Positions 31,876 to 52,644 of a stretch of DNA of 64,000 nucleotides are shown here, piece by piece; positions within the stretch are counted from its first letter, which is position 1; the number at the start of each line of letters is the position of its first letter. This DNA comes from an uncultured Flavobacterium sp. GTDB taxonomy: Bacteria > Bacteroidota > Bacteroidia > Flavobacteriales > Flavobacteriaceae. Below the pieces are notes generated by a model. It searched no databases. It had not been told where the DNA came from and saw only the letters and a program-made list of their open reading frames with translations. The position numbers and the translations under genes are program-made. The stretch is from contig NZ_CAMLDD010000001.1 of assembly GCF_946478785.1 (NCBI RefSeq), forward strand, positions 62,001 through 126,000, in the 5' to 3' direction.

Positions 31876-31979
31876 ATGCTGTTTTTATTCTGATTCGAGG
31901 GTTGATTTTTATCTTATTTTTAAGCCGACAATAGCATTGCTTTTTTGGAATAGAATTATTAGGATTTTCAATTAGGCAG

Positions 31980-32058
31980 CTTATCCCGCTTTGCGCTTCA
32001 ATCTTTTATACCGGACCCCGGCAGAAAAGGATTTCCTCTTCAATCGGGGCTGGAGAAA
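31980..32058. repeat. Dispersed intergenic hairpin repeat, copy B
   Basis: Second copy of the element at 12011-12090. It keeps the hairpin arms CTTTT..CCG/CGG..AAAAG and the flanking CCCGCT and ATCGGGGCT. It lies in the gap between the histone-like gene and the cassette array. Copies A and B differ by scattered substitutions, so it is an old dispersed repeat rather than a recent duplication. Confidence 0.65.
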
Positions 32059-32149
32059 CATTCTGCTTTTTTATAAGCATTTAAAAAGTGATTATTAGGA
32101 TGAGGTGTATTGACAGATGAGTATATAAGCGTTCGGCTTTTTCCAATTG

Positions 32150-32297
32150 CAAAATTACATTTTTTCATTAATCCACTTGTCCAAATCTGTTGTAGATATT
32201 GGCAGTGCTAACTTTAATTAAAGATTAATTTTTCAGATACAAACCAATTTTTATATTCATCTTATAACCCCAATCTCGCCAAGCGACTGTCAGCACC
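32150..32297 (-). repeat. Two half-sites of the attC-like repeat at the end of the array
   Basis: Two right-arm-like sequences without proper left arms: CCAAATCTGTTGTAGATATT at about 32181-32200, and CCCCAATCTCGCCAAGCGAC at about 32268-32287, which runs into the stop codon of the HEPN-like gene. They look like remnants left by deletion or cassette loss and mark the distal limit of the array. Confidence 0.45.
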
Positions 32298-33147
32298 AGC
32301 TTCTATATGTGTTTTTAAATTCTTCTAAAATCTCGAATGGTATATCAAAAATTTGCATAGTGGAATTACCGTTAGTATTTTCATAAGTGTAAGCTTTGAT
32401 TTGATTACTTTTAGTTTTTCGACTTCCAACAAACATTTCAATATTTTCAATAGCTTCATCAAGTTCATTACGTTCACTAAAATAAATGAATTTTTGAATT
32501 GATATGATATGAAATGATAATTCGTTTATTAACGGAATCAAATCTAAATCCTCTGTCATTTCATTAAGATTTCGATAAATTATACTACCGAATAAATCTT
32601 TTTCTTTTTTTAGGGATTCTATGTTTAGAAGCAATTGTGAAGAATGTTTGCTTGATTCAGGAAATTCATTATTAAAATCAATTTTGAATAAAACAATTTC
32701 TAAAGGAAAGCCTAAATGTGCTGAATAATTTCTAAGTTTAGAAAGAAAGCGATATGCAAAGGAATTGTCGAATAAATTATGAGTAAGTTCTGTAAAATCT
32801 TTAGCTATTATAGATTCTTTACCGTATTTTCTTTTAAGATAAGTTTGTGCGTTATCTAAAAAGAATTTAAAGCTCATTAAAACGTTAGAAATTCTTTTAT
32901 TAAATTCTAATACAAAATGAATATTAGTCGAAATCATTAAGTCCATTTTGTATGCTGGTACATTTGTCCATTCTAATACAAAGTCAGCGTAGTCTTTTAA
33001 ATTTAATTGAAGGTATTTAAAAACAACAAATTGAATATACGATTTCGTTAAAACTTCACAATCCTGTTTCAGAAGATTGTAAGTTTCTTCAGTTAAAGTC
33101 TGAAAAGGTTCAAATGAGTTATCTTCGAATGTTGATAATCTAATCAC
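32290..33147 (-). CDS. Hypothetical cassette protein with a HEPN-like Rx4H motif
   Basis: 285 residues, helical, no signal peptide. The segment SKLRNYSAHLGFPLEI contains RNYSAH (R139, H144), matching the Rx4-6H catalytic motif of HEPN RNases. Nothing else identifies the family, so a nuclease role is only suggested. Other parts are amphipathic helices (YADFVLEWTNVPAYKMDLMI; LIPLINELSFHIISIQKFIY). It is the last gene of the cassette array; its stop lies inside a half attC-like site. The motif can occur by chance. Confidence 0.6.
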   Translation of the reverse strand: MIRLSTFEDNSFEPFQTLTEETYNLLKQDCEVLTKSYIQFVVFKYLQLNLKDYADFVLEWTNVPAYKMDLMISTNIHFVLEFNKRISNVLMSFKFFLDNAQTYLKRKYGKESIIAKDFTELTHNLFDNSFAYRFLSKLRNYSAHLGFPLEIVLFKIDFNNEFPESSKHSSQLLLNIESLKKEKDLFGSIIYRNLNEMTEDLDLIPLINELSFHIISIQKFIYFSERNELDEAIENIEMFVGSRKTKSNQIKAYTYENTNGNSTMQIFDIPFEILEEFKNTYRSWC

Positions 33148-33166
33148 GATTTTTTTTTATTTTAAG

Positions 33167-33288
33167 ATTGGTACTACAGCGGGTTTTGGACTAAATTAAG
33201 CCCTATTTTCGGATTTGCCAATCATTCCAAATACAAAACTAACTTTTAATTTAGCCAATTGCCCAAATCCGTTGTAGATGTTAGGCAC
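33167..33288 (-). repeat. attC-like palindrome b
   Basis: The outer arms are GGTACTACAGCGGGTTTTGG and CCCAAATCCGTTGTAGATGT. The right end is GTTAGGC (33280-33286), a perfect match to GTTRRRY; read in the gene direction it is GCCTAAC, 4 bp after the stop of 33292-34080. The left end is degenerate. Confidence 0.6.
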
Positions 33289-33291
33289 AGT

Positions 33292-34080
33292 TTATTCTGT
33301 TGTCGATAAGTATTTATTTATGTCTGCAGTTAGTCTGTCAATTATCATCTCTTGAACCTTTGCCTTATTTTCGGTTTCCATGTCCTCCGATATTTTTAAT
33401 GCCAGACTAATGTTTTGAGTTATTACAAGTTTTTGATGATACTGACTCATTTTTAAAACCGTTCTATTGTATAAGTAAAAGAAAACAGCTGCAATGAATT
33501 CTGAAATTACTCCAGCGGCTGTAGTTACATATGCAGGTTCAGTTTTATCGAAAAACATCATAATTATTCCAATACTAATAATTACAAGTCCCGTTATAGA
33601 TGCGTTTGATGCAAGTCTAAAACTTTTATCAGCTTGTTCTTGAGTCTGAAGATAGTACTGGTCAATATATTTAAAATTTATTTTTACAAGTTTTGTAAAG
33701 AAATTCTCTTCAATTTTATCCTGCAATTCTTCTGCTCCTAATTGCACTAATTTATATTCGATTCTTCTTAATCGATTTTGTGCAGAGATTCTAAAAAAGC
33801 TAAAAGCATAACCATATGTAAACGTGCCAAACAAGGCTCCGATTACAACATAAGATAATCTCCTATCAATCATTTGAGTTAGATTTTCATAATGACGAAA
33901 ATCTGTTATTGCTGCAAATGAGTAGCCTGCAAGTCCACCAGCTATTATGACAAGTATAAACCAGCCAGCTTTAAACTTTAAGCTTTCAACACGTTCTTGT
34001 AAATGCTCTTTTCTTTTTTTGAGAACTTCTATTGACTCTTCAAATTCGGAGTCTGTTACCGGTTTTTCGTCTTCTGCCAT
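33292..34080 (-). CDS. Cassette membrane protein resembling TRADD-N-associated membrane domain proteins
   Basis: 262 residues from the ATG at 34080; an upstream extension to 34167 would run through the attC-like site and is rejected. A charged coiled-coil N-terminus (EESIEVLKKRKEHLQERVES) is followed by four hydrophobic helices: WFILVIIAGGLAGYSFAAI, VVIGALFGTFTYGYAFSFF, ITGLVIISIGIIMMFF and VTTAAGVISEFIAAVFFYLY. The signature NRTVLKMSQYHQKLVITQNI and the C-terminal helix resemble the TRADD-N-associated membrane domain family described from conflict systems. The match is by pattern, from memory. It could be a membrane effector; no activity is proven. Confidence 0.6.
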   Translation of the reverse strand: MAEDEKPVTDSEFEESIEVLKKRKEHLQERVESLKFKAGWFILVIIAGGLAGYSFAAITDFRHYENLTQMIDRRLSYVVIGALFGTFTYGYAFSFFRISAQNRLRRIEYKLVQLGAEELQDKIEENFFTKLVKINFKYIDQYYLQTQEQADKSFRLASNASITGLVIISIGIIMMFFDKTEPAYVTTAAGVISEFIAAVFFYLYNRTVLKMSQYHQKLVITQNISLALKISEDMETENKAKVQEMIIDRLTADINKYLSTTE

Positions 34081-34094
34081 GTCTTTTAAATTTT

Positions 34095-34225
34095 GCCTAA
34101 CTTCTGGCGCTTGGCAAGGTTGGGGATTAAAGATGCGGGATTTGTGGGTTGAACACAAATTTACCAATACAAAACCAACTTTCCATTATGTTTACCCCCC
34201 AATCTCGTCAAACTGTTGTTAGCCG
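34095..34225 (-). repeat. attC-like palindrome c
   Basis: The left end GCCTAACTTC (34095) and right end GTTGTTAGCCG form the outer arms; the inner arms are CTTGGCAAGGTTGGGGATT and CCCCCAATCTCGTCAAAC. Between them is the shared block ACCAATACAAAACCAACTTT. GCCTAAC fits RYYYAAC exactly. It lies between the TRADD-N-like gene start and the 52-codon frame. Confidence 0.6.
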
Positions 34226-34249
34226 TTCATTGTTTTTTGATTCATTATT

Positions 34250-34408
34250 CTATTTCAATTTTATTGTAAGCAATCTACGTTTCAAATTTCCAACCATTCT
34301 TTTTAAATGCTCTTCATTTAAAAAAATATTCGTCCAATATTCAAATCTGTCTTTGCCAAGTTCGTTTGGTGAAAGTGTACTGTTTATTGTCGGGAATTTC
34401 TCTAGCAT
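34250..34408 (-). CDS. Small cassette ORF (52 residues)
   Basis: ATG at 34408, stop at 34250. The protein reads MLEKFPTINSTLSPNELGKD and later FEYWTNIFLNEEHLKRMVGN, ending in a basic tail (KRRLLTIKLK). I do not recognise it; it could be the remnant of a larger cassette gene. Its place exactly between attC-like sites c and d, on the cassette strand and in cassette spacing, is the main reason to list it. Confidence 0.45.
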   Translation of the reverse strand: MLEKFPTINSTLSPNELGKDRFEYWTNIFLNEEHLKRMVGNLKRRLLTIKLK

Positions 34409-34450
34409 TAATTCTTCGATTGCCTTTGGTTATGGTTGCTTTTTACAATG

Positions 34451-34587
34451 ACGGCTCACTTCTGTTACGACAAAGGGTTTGGGAGTAAATTAAGCCCTAT
34501 TTACGGATTTGCTAAATTATTCCCAAATACAAACCCAACTTTCCATTAAGCCAAATGCCAAAATCAATTGTAGTGACTGTTAGCAGT
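34451..34587 (-). repeat. attC-like palindrome d
   Basis: The arms are GTTACGACAAAGGGTTTGGG and GCCAAAATCAATTGTAGTGA; the outer ends are ACGGCTCAC and GTTAGCAG. The inner block AATACAAACCCAACTTTCCA matches site c. The left outer box GTGAGCCG, read on the minus strand, is a degenerate form of GTTAGGC. Confidence 0.55.
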
Positions 34588-34658
34588 TTGGTATTTAATT
34601 CAATATCATTTTTAGCAACCCTTTTTTGTTTGAAAATATAATGACAACATTAAAAATT

Positions 34659-35076
34659 TTAATTTATTGGTAGAACAATTCTGTCTTTGGGCTCAGCTGA
34701 CCATTGAACTTGCCAAACACGTCCATCAATTTGGTCAAGCAAAATGAAATTATATATGTTTGTTGTCGGATAAAGAAAAAATCTTCCGTTCTTCTCATCT
34801 TCCTTTGTAACTCGGGTTATTAAGGATAGCGGAGATTCAAACTCATTACCTTTTGCAGACCATTGAACTTGCCACATTTGTCCATCTTTTGTATTCATTT
34901 TAATAAATGTATACATATTTTTTGTTGCGAATAGCCTATACCCAATATCACTATCTGTAGAAATATTTTGAGTTGGTGTGTCAGATGTGCTTTGGGGAAA
35001 AAGCAGAAATTGTCGTCAAAGTAATAATTGTTACAAAGAATAATTTTACCATTTGTTTCAGTGTTTTAATTGTCAT
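34659..35076 (-). pseudogene. Secreted WQVQW-repeat cassette protein, broken by one base
   Basis: The ATG at 35076 opens a signal peptide (MVKLFFVTIITLTTISAF within it). The frame is lost at about 34994-35002, where the sense strand reads CTTTTTCCCCAAAG. One T fewer would join it to the downstream frame reading STSDTPTQNISTDSDIGYRL and onward. The mature part has two related repeats ending DGQMWQVQWSA and DGRVWQVQWSA, about 50 residues apart. As given, only the 85 C-terminal residues (34659-34916) have an ATG. It could be an exported small repeat protein inactivated recently, or a sequencing error. Confidence 0.65.
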
Positions 35077-35100
35077 TATATCTGTAGGGTTTTTATGCTG

Positions 35101-35243
35101 ACCGATAATGTCTTGGCGCTAAACGAGGTTTGGGATTTTGGGATTAATGATGCGAAATTTTTCGGTAGCTCAAATTTTACAATTACAAAACCATTTTTAA
35201 AATTCAGCCAAATGCCCAAATCTCGTGTACGGCTGTTATTCAC
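35101..35243 (-). repeat. attC-like palindrome e
   Basis: The arms are TTGGCGCTAAACGAGGTTTG and CCCAAATCTCGTGTACGGCT; the outer ends are ATAATG and GTTATTC. The inner block ACAATTACAAAACCATTTTT follows the family. It starts about 14 bp after the stop of the caspase-like gene. Confidence 0.6.
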
Positions 35244-35256
35244 TTTTTTTTTTTAT

Positions 35257-35973
35257 TTAAATTATTGTTATTACAAATGGGAAATCCACATCTCCAATTT
35301 TTGTCGGATTCTGATTTCCTTTTGTTAATTCTACAACTTGTTTGTTTGTCAGTTCAAATATGTAATTTGCGCCTACAATTTCTTCTCTAAAATATTCGTG
35401 AATGTAAATTGAAATGTCTATTATTAATTGAAGAAATAAAAAACCACTTGCACTTTCCCCAATACTTGAAGCAAAAAGATATAATGTCCCTTCGTCAGAA
35501 TTCTGTATTGATTGATTAAATTTTAAGAGCGATTCTTCTCTTGTTAATGGTCTTTTTACAATTCCTCCATACTTATATTTTGGTATAAGTCTATTTATTC
35601 TTTTTATATCAAGTTCAAAGTCGATAATATCTCTGCAAGTTTCAATAATGTGTAGTTGTCTTTTGCAATGAAATTGTATTTGTCCGGGTTGAACAAATAA
35701 TTCTTTTTGCATTTGAAAAACTTGATTACCGTCTTTATTTGCACCGTGTCCAATAAGTAAAACAACTAAATAATCACTCGTGTTTAAGAATTCAAGATTT
35801 TGAAGTGTCTCTAATTTGGGTTCTTCATAAATAAATATCTCATTGTCAAAATCAAAAGCACCACCTGCATTGCTACAAAAATAGTCAATATATAGTTGAA
35901 TGATTTTGCGGTCATTTGTTAGTTCAATTTCTGTTTTACTATGTCCTTTGATTATTAAAATTGATTTCTTCAT
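35257..35973 (-). CDS. Caspase-like (peptidase C14-type) cassette protein
   Basis: 238 residues with the spacing of a caspase fold: an N-terminal strand (SILIIKGHS), an acidic helix and linker, then the catalytic His in LVVLLIGHGANKDG (H76) and the catalytic Cys in HIIETCRDI (C113). The p20-like core ends at about 120. The downstream part (PLTREESLLKFNQSIQNSDEGTLYLFASSIGESASG, given by its ends) is consistent with a p10-like region: strand, then SIGESASG. Bacterial caspase-like proteins often act in defence or programmed death. It lies in the cassette array, one site on each side. Activity is not shown. Confidence 0.7.
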   Translation of the reverse strand: MKKSILIIKGHSKTEIELTNDRKIIQLYIDYFCSNAGGAFDFDNEIFIYEEPKLETLQNLEFLNTSDYLVVLLIGHGANKDGNQVFQMQKELFVQPGQIQFHCKRQLHIIETCRDIIDFELDIKRINRLIPKYKYGGIVKRPLTREESLLKFNQSIQNSDEGTLYLFASSIGESASGFLFLQLIIDISIYIHEYFREEIVGANYIFELTNKQVVELTKGNQNPTKIGDVDFPFVITII

Positions 35974-36002
35974 TTTTCGGAATATCTCGGTCTTTAAAAT
36001 AG

Positions 36003-36137
36003 TGCATAATGTTCTCGCGCTACAAGCAGTTTGGGATTAAGAAAGCCAAATTTCGGATAAACACAAATTTATCTGATACAAGACCAACTTTAAATTAAAC
36101 CTAAAACCCAAATTGCTTGTAGCGTGTGTTATATGCA
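36003..36137 (-). repeat. attC-like palindrome f (best-preserved)
   Basis: The arms TCTCGCGCTACAAGCAGTTT and CCAAATTGCTTGTAGCGTGT pair over about 20 bp with few mismatches. The outer ends are TGCATAATG and GTTATATGCA. Within lies the block ATACAAGACCAACTTTAAAT. Its right end is 5 bp after the stop of the 36142-36642 gene, as expected for a cassette. Confidence 0.65.
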
Positions 36138-36141
36138 GGTT

Positions 36142-36642
36142 TTATTTTATGTTTGAGTTGACTGAAATAGGTTCAACTTTTTTCGGATTAATGTTTGTCG
36201 AATCTTTTTTAGATTTTGGCGAAACTTTCAGTTTCTGTGGCTCGTTCGTTGATTCAATTTTAGGTTTACTTTCTGCATAAGATTTTGCCATTTCAACTAT
36301 ACTATAAATACCTCCAACAATGCCCAAAACGAGTGCAGGCCAAAGAGTATAATATTTAAATTTAGATATTTTGTATTCATAAAATTGTTTATCATCTAAA
36401 ATCTTTTTTTCTTTCGCTTTCGCTAAATTATACGACTTCCATCCTCCAGCTTGTAAAACTTCTTCACCAGTTTTACTAAGTTCAAAGATATTAGTATTTA
36501 TATGAGGAGTAACTAAATATCCTTTACATTTAAGTGCGATTGCAACTCTAGAATATTCTCTATTGTCAAAAGGAGATATATCAGTCCAACCATTTCTTAA
36601 TATTGTATTAAATATTTCTTCATTAATTTCATCTTCTTCCAT
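36142..36642 (-). CDS. Cassette protein with winged-helix-like N-terminus and one membrane helix
   Basis: 166 residues. The N-terminal part (FNTILRNGWTDISPFDNREY; IALKCKGYLVTPHINTNIFE) is compatible with a winged helix. A membrane helix lies at about 101-118 (TLWPALVLGIVGGIYSIV), followed by a Lys/Ser-rich tail (KSKKDSTNINPKKVEP). I do not know the family. It is the first gene of the cassette array on this strand; no further attC-like site is found upstream. Confidence 0.55.
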   Translation of the reverse strand: MEEDEINEEIFNTILRNGWTDISPFDNREYSRVAIALKCKGYLVTPHINTNIFELSKTGEEVLQAGGWKSYNLAKAKEKKILDDKQFYEYKISKFKYYTLWPALVLGIVGGIYSIVEMAKSYAESKPKIESTNEPQKLKVSPKSKKDSTNINPKKVEPISVNSNIK

Positions 36643-36934
36643 AATGTTTTTTTTCTACTGCGGTAAACTTGGATATAACTTAATTATTTAGGCGATAAAA
36701 TTGCTTACATAAGTACTATTGTGGATGGCTTTATGCCATTCTTTAAATTTCTAAATCAAACGTACAAAACCGCTTTTGTTTTATTTTACGGTTTTCCGTA
36801 GTTCATATAATTAAAAAAGTTGCAAAATAATTCGTTAATGATGAAATCATACCGTATAAATACCTGTTTAATGCAAAAAACACCCTCAAGGTACTTCTAG
36901 TTATATTATAATTAAGAATTAGAGTGAACTAGCT

Positions 36935-51735: not shown

Positions 51736-52644
51736 ATGTTACAGGAGCAATTTTCAGATGTAGTCCAGTTAATAAAGCAATCCAGATCAAAAGCTATCTC
51801 AGCGGTCAATACCGAAATGATAAATCTGTATTGGAATATTGGTCAGTACATCCATATCCGTGTTGAAAGCCAGCAGTGGGGACAATCGGTAGTTAGCGAA
51901 TTAGCACTGTTTTTAAAAAATACCGAACCTGAAATAAAAGGTTTTTCAGATAAAAATCTTTGGCGAATGAAGCAGTTTTATCAGGCCTATAAAGATTTTC
52001 CAAATCTCTCAGCGCTGCTGAGAGAAATCAGCTGGACAAATAATCTAATCATTTTAAGCCGGGCAAAATCCATCGAGGAGCGCGAGTTTTATCTGGGGCT
52101 CTCCAGGCAGGAGAAGTTCAGTTCGAGAGAGCTCGAGAGACAAATAAACAGTGGTGTTTTTGAAAGGACTATTCTGGGAAATACAAAACTCTCATCAGCG
52201 ATGAGAGAATTACATCCCGATATCGCAAATACATTTAAGGACAGTTATATTTTTGACTTTCTTAATCTTTCAGATTCCTACAGCGAGAACGATCTCCAAA
52301 AAGGACTTATAAGTCAGATGAAAGATTTTATACTTGAACTTGGTAAGGATTTTCTATTTATTGCAGAGGAGTATAAAGTTCAGGTAGGGCATAGCGATTT
52401 TTTTATTGACCTGCTTTTTTATCACAGAGGACTTCAATGCCTTATAGCCTTTGAGCTTAAATCAGATAAATTTAAACCGGAACATTTAGGCCAGCTCAAT
52501 TTTTATTTGGAAGCATTAGATCGTGATGTTCGCAAACCAAATGAAAACCCCAGTATCGGAATATTATTATGCAAGGATCAGGATCATGCTGTGGTGGAAT
52601 ATGCGCTAAGCAGAAGTCTTTCTCCCACTATGGTAGCAGAATAA
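51736..52644 (+). CDS. DUF1016 (YhcG-type) PDDEXK nuclease
   Basis: 302 residues. The N-terminal DUF1016 helical domain (INLYWNIGQYIHIRVESQQW; FSDKNLWRMKQFYQAYKDF) is followed by a PDDEXK nuclease fold. Catalytic residues are D225 (FFIDLLFY) and E240/K242 (AFELKSD). This family is common near restriction-modification and mobile element genes. Its action on DNA is inferred from the fold. It follows mobC after 33 bp and may be co-transcribed with it. Confidence 0.9.
   Translation: MLQEQFSDVVQLIKQSRSKAISAVNTEMINLYWNIGQYIHIRVESQQWGQSVVSELALFLKNTEPEIKGFSDKNLWRMKQFYQAYKDFPNLSALLREISWTNNLIILSRAKSIEEREFYLGLSRQEKFSSRELERQINSGVFERTILGNTKLSSAMRELHPDIANTFKDSYIFDFLNLSDSYSENDLQKGLISQMKDFILELGKDFLFIAEEYKVQVGHSDFFIDLLFYHRGLQCLIAFELKSDKFKPEHLGQLNFYLEALDRDVRKPNENPSIGILLCKDQDHAVVEYALSRSLSPTMVAE

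Follow-up and report, generated by a model that had tools for sequence, protein, structure and literature searches.

A probable integron-type cassette system without I2 in Bacteroidota, and a worn array of its cassettes in a Flavobacterium conjugative element

Introduction

The closest described relatives of the locus considered here, a row of six gene cassettes separated by hairpin sites in a 64-kb stretch of DNA from an uncultured Flavobacterium sp. (hereafter the window, meaning the whole stretch analysed, with positions counted from its first base), are the integrons, among them sedentary chromosomal integrons and the integrase-less clusters known as CALIN (clusters of attC sites lacking integron integrases). 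In integron cassettes the first bases are complementary to the R'' box near the cassette end, both being derived from one site. In the inverted-integrase integrons of Treponema the integrase gene lies on the cassette strand.

Integron integrases have been found or screened for by way of their additional domain (I2), as excerpts of a survey (PMC8352920) and of an archaeal study (PMC9668308) state; the survey retained only IntI with a complete additional domain and, in the same excerpts, mentions 'inverted IntIs'. Deletion of I2, to which residues K219 and Y220 of IntI1 belong, abolishes IntI1 function, and an excerpt of the paper concerned says that direct proof is therefore lacking (PMC7790495). 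In the part of their article drawn on here, Escudero et al. treat the joint origin of I2 and attC as a chicken-egg paradox that functional intermediates could explain (PMC4792948), and an excerpt of the IntegronFinder 2.0 paper names one complete integron in Bacteroidetes proper, that of Salinibacter (PMC9024848).

A preliminary description of the window took its cassettes for an integron-like array without an integrase, either a CALIN mobilised by an integrase elsewhere or a distinct cassette system of Bacteroidota. The evidence presented here points, with a probability of roughly 86%, to a Bacteroidota integron-type cassette system without I2, known here from sequences alone; the figure is a joint one that also covers the assembly of the window's array elsewhere by such a system and its present carriage by a conjugative element. 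The system is integron-like by anatomy but departs from the family in one defining feature, as its recombinases do not have the additional domain (I2). We found no description of an I2-less cassette system of Bacteroidota in the open-licence PubMed Central (PMC) literature, and such a system would escape surveys that rely on the additional domain.

Results

A family of folded sites recurs in Flavobacterium

The open reading frames (ORFs) of the window's array are separated by imperfect palindromes of ~130 bases each that share a loop motif, which, with up to three mismatches allowed, occurs eight times against 0.83 expected, six of the eight inside the array. A loop-pattern scan of one genome per species recovered at least 120 stretches, and Flavobacterium appears in the titles of 114 of the 120 listed. 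A motif match in Treponema (L023) was set aside as chance, its flanking sequence being unlike a site; in a scan of viral contigs, three of nine hold sites and the remaining six do not resemble them.

Sixty-one sites satisfied our rules for site ends, and 45 were retained once near-copies had been dropped (leaving sites under 93% alike). AAC and CGTT are invariant over these 45, although the selection required such ends, and the family carries attC-type RYYYAAC and GTTRRRY boxes. The stem covaries: 88.4% of its cells are paired, against 77.2% in shuffles, double-sided changes occur in 14 of 18 stem pairs, and none of 500 shuffles scored as high on any of five measures. Mismatches recur at fixed stem positions, namely 24/118 (A.C) in 42 of the 45 sites, 11/130 in 41 and 20/122 in 33, bulges having been assessed from the alignment only. 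Because an A.C of the top strand becomes a T.G on the bottom strand, more cells are able to pair on the latter (801 of 897; top strand, 720 of 897). Folding is more stable for the bottom strand in 30 of the 45 sites and in four of the five window sites.

A covariance model, R1, was built solely from the sites of other genomes, with the window excluded. It finds matches in 116 of 150 Flavobacterium genomes, and since 22 candidates were scored in each genome, per-genome site numbers are lower bounds; the repeats first noticed in the window are thus present in other genomes, and there a related tyrosine recombinase adjoins the arrays. Copies lying within coding sequences would have told against cassettes, as the preliminary description recognised. 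Elsewhere the sites in fact stand between cassette-like genes: the longest ORF is on the site strand in 105 of 123 cassettes and on the other strand in eight, and ten have none of 50 aa. As a general detector of attC, R1 was dismissed; at E up to 1 it matched nothing in 11 kb of a Vibrio array, in class 1 and class 2 integron loci of 2.3 kb or in three XerD loci.

A recombinase without the I2 insert accompanies the arrays

Genomes that bear sites carry one family of tyrosine recombinase of ~350 aa. The 17 array loci contain 120 sites between them, with one counted twice because of the overlap of L162 and L163, and once palindromic double matches had been merged each locus proved single-stranded in orientation. 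The sites share the strand of the recombinase gene in all 14 loci that hold both, and they lie downstream of it in the fetched loci. Knowledge that sites lay near the recombinase guided the choice of thirteen of the 20 fetched regions (9 genomes); of the seven picked by the recombinase alone, four have sites, and the contigs of the other three end within 0.7 kb. Independent of the choice of loci is a 5.4-Mb chromosome (G124), whose listed site matches (14 of 19) all lie no more than 11 kb downstream of the recombinase. In another genome (G061) the array runs to ~46 kb.

The association extends beyond these loci. In 34 further loci of the class to which Flavobacterium belongs, Bacteroidia in GTDB terms, 44 of 45 R1 matches are on the recombinase strand, and the recombinase family (E up to 1e-50) is present in 148 of 295 genomes of that class, array service not being demonstrated for the weak end of this set. 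Within Flavobacterium, sites occur in 78 of 86 recombinase-positive genomes against 38 of 64 recombinase-negative ones (Fisher p 8e-6); those 38 resemble the window in that their sites stand without a detected recombinase.

In 12 of 14 arrays the first cassette begins 98-108 bp past the recombinase stop codon; in one the distance is 154 bp, and in the fourteenth (L167) its start was not found. An attI-like junction, typically at ~105 bp, therefore adjoins the recombinase gene in 13 of 14 arrays. It mostly ends TATATACAA^GTT or near variants, and the inverted repeats that precede it have arms that differ between genomes. The position of this conserved junction suggests that it may act as attI. 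The motif TAnnTTTG, which we take to be the Bacteroidetes -7 promoter box, lies no more than 60 bp past the recombinase end in 13 of 17 loci, against 0.5 expected.

A stretch of 60 residues in VchIntI4 (2a3v) corresponds to 18 residues in the recombinase. The segment between KDR and HxLRH, measured in 79 sequences, spans 53-66 residues in all 76 non-IntI proteins against 100-101 in three IntI, and in the set used for the tree below it spans 58-60 residues in 28 array recombinases against 100-101 in 24 IntI. The array recombinase is thus without ~40 residues at the I2 position of IntI; residues 219 and 220 of IntI1 fall within this stretch. Against the IntI family model TIGR02249 it scores ~210 bits, below the cut-off of 265, where three true IntI score 410-523, and the recombinase of locus L134 is also below the Xer cut-offs (196 bits against 330 for XerD, 184 against 335 for XerC).

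The predicted structure of the recombinase (mean predicted local distance difference test score, pLDDT, 80; predicted template modelling score, pTM, 0.50) shows the order beta-beta-alpha-beta-beta-alpha in its N-terminal domain, and its core is nearest archaeal XerA. When an N-terminal fragment was folded without an alignment, the result did not agree with the full-length model, and the list used for structure comparison hardly probed this part of the protein. A HARP-like identity for the domain, suggested by SMARCAL1, was dropped because of this disagreement and because a profile of eight sequences matched no PDB chain of that kind at E up to 10.

Cassette starts pair with the ends of their own cassettes

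As in integrons, the start of a cassette is complementary to the R'' of the same cassette. Of 103 gaps between neighbouring sites, 89 were used, the rest having no recognised box or being longer than 2600 bases, and over these 89 junctions 6.90 of the 9 bases after GTT agree, whereas 2000 shuffles average 3.29 and never exceed 3.75. Agreement is 87 to 96% at positions +4 to +9 and 60% at +10; position +11 is mismatched in 97%, and wherever the boxes are good (77 junctions) its R' side is A. Five cassettes of the window could be tested; they agree at 32 of 45 bases, the best score among the 120 possible assignments (mean 18.2). Where related cassettes were found in different loci (four recurring cassette families), their neighbours differ on all 19 testable sides.

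The array in the window is worn and lies in a conjugative element

The row of six cassettes, together with seven hairpin sites of which five are full and two decayed, occupies 36679-32130 on the minus strand. Its ORFs (166, 238, 85, 52, 262 and 285 aa) are all on that strand and alternate with the sites, so that both the ORFs and R1 bear out the arrangement first reported, in which six minus-strand genes alternate with five palindromes and two half-sites. In a scan of the 64 kb, R1 recovers all five palindromes on the minus strand at 72-116 bits, within a few bases of the coordinates originally given, except that site 5 extends ~9 bases further; beyond the array sites, it yields just two weak matches in the 64 kb (E up to 10), both of which read these palindromes on the plus strand. 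The features are as follows.

36010 to 36678, minus strand: cassette 1, a 166-aa ORF (36642-36142) and site 1
36002 to 36135, minus strand: attC-like site 1 (R1 116.4 bits, E 2.7e-22)
35109 to 36009, minus strand: cassette 2, a 238-aa ORF (35973-35257) and site 2; start pairing at 7 of 9 bases
35101 to 35242, minus strand: attC-like site 2 (R1 85.0 bits)
34459 to 35108, minus strand: cassette 3, an 85-aa ORF (34916-34659) and site 3; start pairing at 5 of 9 bases
34451 to 34586, minus strand: attC-like site 3 (R1 104.1 bits)
34101 to 34458, minus strand: cassette 4, a 52-aa ORF (34408-34250) and site 4; start pairing at 6 of 9 bases
34093 to 34225, minus strand: attC-like site 4 (R1 71.9 bits), boxes GGCTAAC ... 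GTTAGGC intact
33167 to 34100, minus strand: cassette 5, a 262-aa membrane protein (34080-33292) and site 5; start pairing at 7 of 9 bases
33158 to 33287, minus strand: attC-like site 5 (R1 108.5 bits), R' box lost
32212 to 33166, minus strand: cassette 6, a 285-aa ORF (33147-32290) and degenerate site 6
32158 to 32296, minus strand: degenerate site 6, merging into the remnant of a seventh site (R1 26.0 bits, E 0.0023; repeat family D4)
32145 to 32195, minus strand: half-site 7, left over from another cassette end (repeat D1, 63% identical to the reference copy)

Cassette 1 starts with GTTATATCCAAG at 36679-36668, which pairs with its own R'' at 7 of 9 bases beyond GTT; the start of cassette 6 does not pair with its own R''. 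The 3' boundary of cassette 5 is approximate, R' being lost, and the strand opposite the cassette 4 ORF holds a longer frame of 87 aa.

Four of the five crossover boxes in the window are degenerate, and GTT is kept at site 4 alone. The crossover of sites 1 and 2 is ACATT, not ACGTT, site 3 has GTG in place of GTT, and R' is gone from site 5. Site 4 itself is one base short ahead of GTT. The fit of the palindrome ends to RYYYAAC/GTTRRRY, as first reported, is good for site 4, where the boxes are intact, while the wear of the other crossovers had escaped notice. Upstream of cassette 1 TATATACAA is missing, so no attI is recognisable in the window, and tblastn across the 64 kb detected no array-type recombinase (best E 0.33), in keeping with the integrase-less state reported earlier. 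With five sites at 72-116 bits and no such recombinase within 64 kb, the array is a CALIN; the wear of four of its five crossover boxes makes it probable that this copy is inert and now fossil cargo. Its neighbourhood is a CTnDOT-type conjugative element with Bac_Flav_CT transfer genes, of which TraG, TraJ, TraM and MobC exceed their NCBIfam cut-offs and MobB, at 294 bits, falls below its cut-off of 400.

As to cassette contents, the cassette 2 protein (35257-35973) matches no Pfam, PADLOC or NCBIfam profile; by eye it has a caspase-like GHG ... C spacing. The cassette 5 protein is assigned to Pfam PF20712 (CyanoTRADDas_TM, E 6e-21). This TRADD-N-associated membrane protein (33292-34080) has relatives at ~50% identity in Vibrio, Aeromonas and Moritella, some of which genera carry integrons. 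Two window cassette proteins searched for in the 150 Flavobacterium genomes gave no match and one match, respectively, the single match being to the cassette 2 protein at 34% identity. Plasmid pGSB-24 of Flavobacterium sp. GSB-24 carries a gene with 74% DNA identity to cassette 3 (L010:8529-8936), in a locus where R1 has no match. No other match in the searches of plasmid and phage DNA was substantial, the other 16 plasmid and nine phage records being short, weak matches. An Rfam scan of the array found no attC family, and only an adjacent Flavo-1 RNA reached the gathering score (RF01705, E 2.8e-12; window 31978-32055, minus strand), next to the worn end of the array. Elsewhere in the same conjugative element, at 51736-52644, is a PADLOC candidate defence protein (PDC-S02, E 5e-128).

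Other elements lie close to the sites

Four loci (L163, L165, L166 and L169) have, near sites and on the opposite strand, copies of another tyrosine recombinase gene (33-38% identical). The sites beside it read GTTTAGTTCAAC on the R'' side, an end motif seen 12 times in five loci, as if an element were using the cassette site as its target. A sequence starting GTCAGGCTGTGAAAAAA begins at the crossover base of sites in 13 copies from nine loci (L008, L169, L172, L176 and others) and is probably an insertion element targeting the sites. Insertion elements of the IS1111 group likewise target attC. In L008, an ORF read by eye as an IS110-type transposase (1-1008) lies beside a site at 1157-1023, and the locus also carries a truncated array recombinase (7072-6674).

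Discussion

By analogy with integrons, the recombinase of ~350 aa, encoded upstream of the array on the same strand and without an I2-bearing insert, would be the enzyme that inserts circular cassettes at attI, with cleavage at the G of GTT. On the same analogy its substrate is probably the folded bottom strand of the cassette site; that strand is favoured because the conserved top-strand A.C mismatches are T.G wobbles on it, so that its hairpin can pair best. A new cassette would land next to a promoter predicted between the recombinase gene and attI.

Several observations weigh against this account. Homology gives thin support to the idea of moving cassettes, in that only four families recur and just 10 of 23 pairs have homology beginning no more than 15 nt from the cassette start, and seven of the 89 junctions pair weakly, at four bases or fewer. 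The bottom strand folds more stably in no more than 30 of the 45 sites. The downstream position of the sites was partly built into our fetches, which took far more downstream sequence, although the agreement of strands is unaffected by this. In the wider class one locus (L232) has its R1 match on the opposite strand, and 16 of the 34 loci have no R1 match, some from contig ends. Within Flavobacterium, more than half of the genomes without a detected recombinase nonetheless have sites, eight of the 86 with a recombinase have none, and 18 site-bearing genomes also encode other tyrosine recombinases. Lastly, I2 was placed by way of two published residues, K219 and Y220, rather than helix by helix.

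One competing explanation is that this is an ordinary integron, whose sites are attC sites served in trans by a classical IntI while the I2-less recombinase is a bystander. The box logic and the hairpin plan do match those of attC, and 105 of 395 genomes of the phylum have TIGR02249 above cut-off. Yet none of 101 Flavobacterium genomes has an IntI above that cut-off (control genomes were silent too, the same family giving the phylum-wide count), whereas sites are present in more than three-quarters of the genus sample. The recombinase, moreover, adjoins the first cassette through the conserved attI-like junction, and R1, silent on the Vibrio and class 1 and 2 loci, gives only eight weak matches near nine true IntI genes of the phylum (best E 0.0035). 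We therefore hold this explanation to be improbable. The two possibilities raised in the preliminary description, a CALIN and a distinct system of Bacteroidota, hold together, and it is mobilisation by an IntI elsewhere that does not seem likely, because the neighbouring recombinases fall below the IntI cut-off and are without the IntI insert. Still harder to credit, to the point that we give it very little weight, is that the palindromes are terminators, or a dispersed palindromic repeat of the MITE (miniature inverted-repeat transposable element) or REP (repetitive extragenic palindromic) kind that favours gene ends. Many hairpins do follow closely on a stop codon (median spacing 15 nt, upper quartile 182; n = 107), but terminators would not explain why the bases after one site are complementary to the box before the next, the conserved site includes no T-run, and the sites hold to one strand beside one gene family. 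Unrelated terminators, which the preliminary description had named as the outcome that would undo it, are at odds with the covariation of the stem as well as with the pairing rule.

It is somewhat easier to imagine, although in our view still unlikely, that the recombinase descends from an IntI by secondary loss of I2, in which case the system would be a derived integron, uninformative on evolutionary order. The tree comprises 64 sequences (28 array recombinases, hand-picked for spread, 24 IntI, six XerC, three XerD, two XerA and one other), and in it the array recombinases and IntI join with support of 99/97, apart from XerC, XerD and XerA, as secondary loss would have it. IntI, however, forms a single clade (100/100) within which the I2-less family is not nested, and the Xer outgroups are also without the insert (60-66 residues), so that its absence appears to be the simpler ancestral state. 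The tree is not decisive on this point: approximately unbiased (AU) tests do not reject XerA joined to either group (p 0.159 and 0.184), and a sister relation is thus favoured, not proven. The array recombinase family, then, probably branches beside IntI, and as a single clade it is not rejected either (p 0.53), the tree leaving it a clade or a grade.

If the system without I2 is real, the order in which I2 and attC arose would become a question open to test in a natural system. Whether the arrays are living intermediates between Xer recombinases and integrons, with folded attC-like sites, an attI and a dedicated recombinase but no I2, is to our minds an evenly balanced matter. Were it so, one possibility is that folded cassette sites arose before I2; the other is a second solution to the same problem, with the part of extrahelical bases and I2 played by the conserved mismatches (on the bottom strand, T.G wobbles) and perhaps by the N-terminal domain.

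Comparison with known systems

From XerA, XerC and XerD the present recombinase is set apart by its extra N-terminal domain of ~70 aa, by its cassette arrays and by its sub-cut-off XerC and XerD scores. With the inverted-integrase integrons it shares a gene on the cassette strand, and it differs from them in being without the additional domain. The likeness is closest to integrons, whether considered as IntI systems, sedentary chromosomal integrons or CALIN: in both, each cassette consists of one gene and one hairpin site and a row of cassettes keeps to a single strand, the R'' and R' boxes read RYYYAAC/GTTRRRY, the cassette start is complementary to its own R'', an attI-like junction stands beside the integrase gene, and integrase-less clusters exist. 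In contrast to integrons, the recombinase described here has no insert to hold I2 and scores below the IntI cut-off, and its gene lies upstream of the array on the array strand; the sites have A.C and C.C mismatches that are conserved, in contrast to the extrahelical bases described for attC, and the profile built from them finds none of the canonical integron loci on which it was tried.

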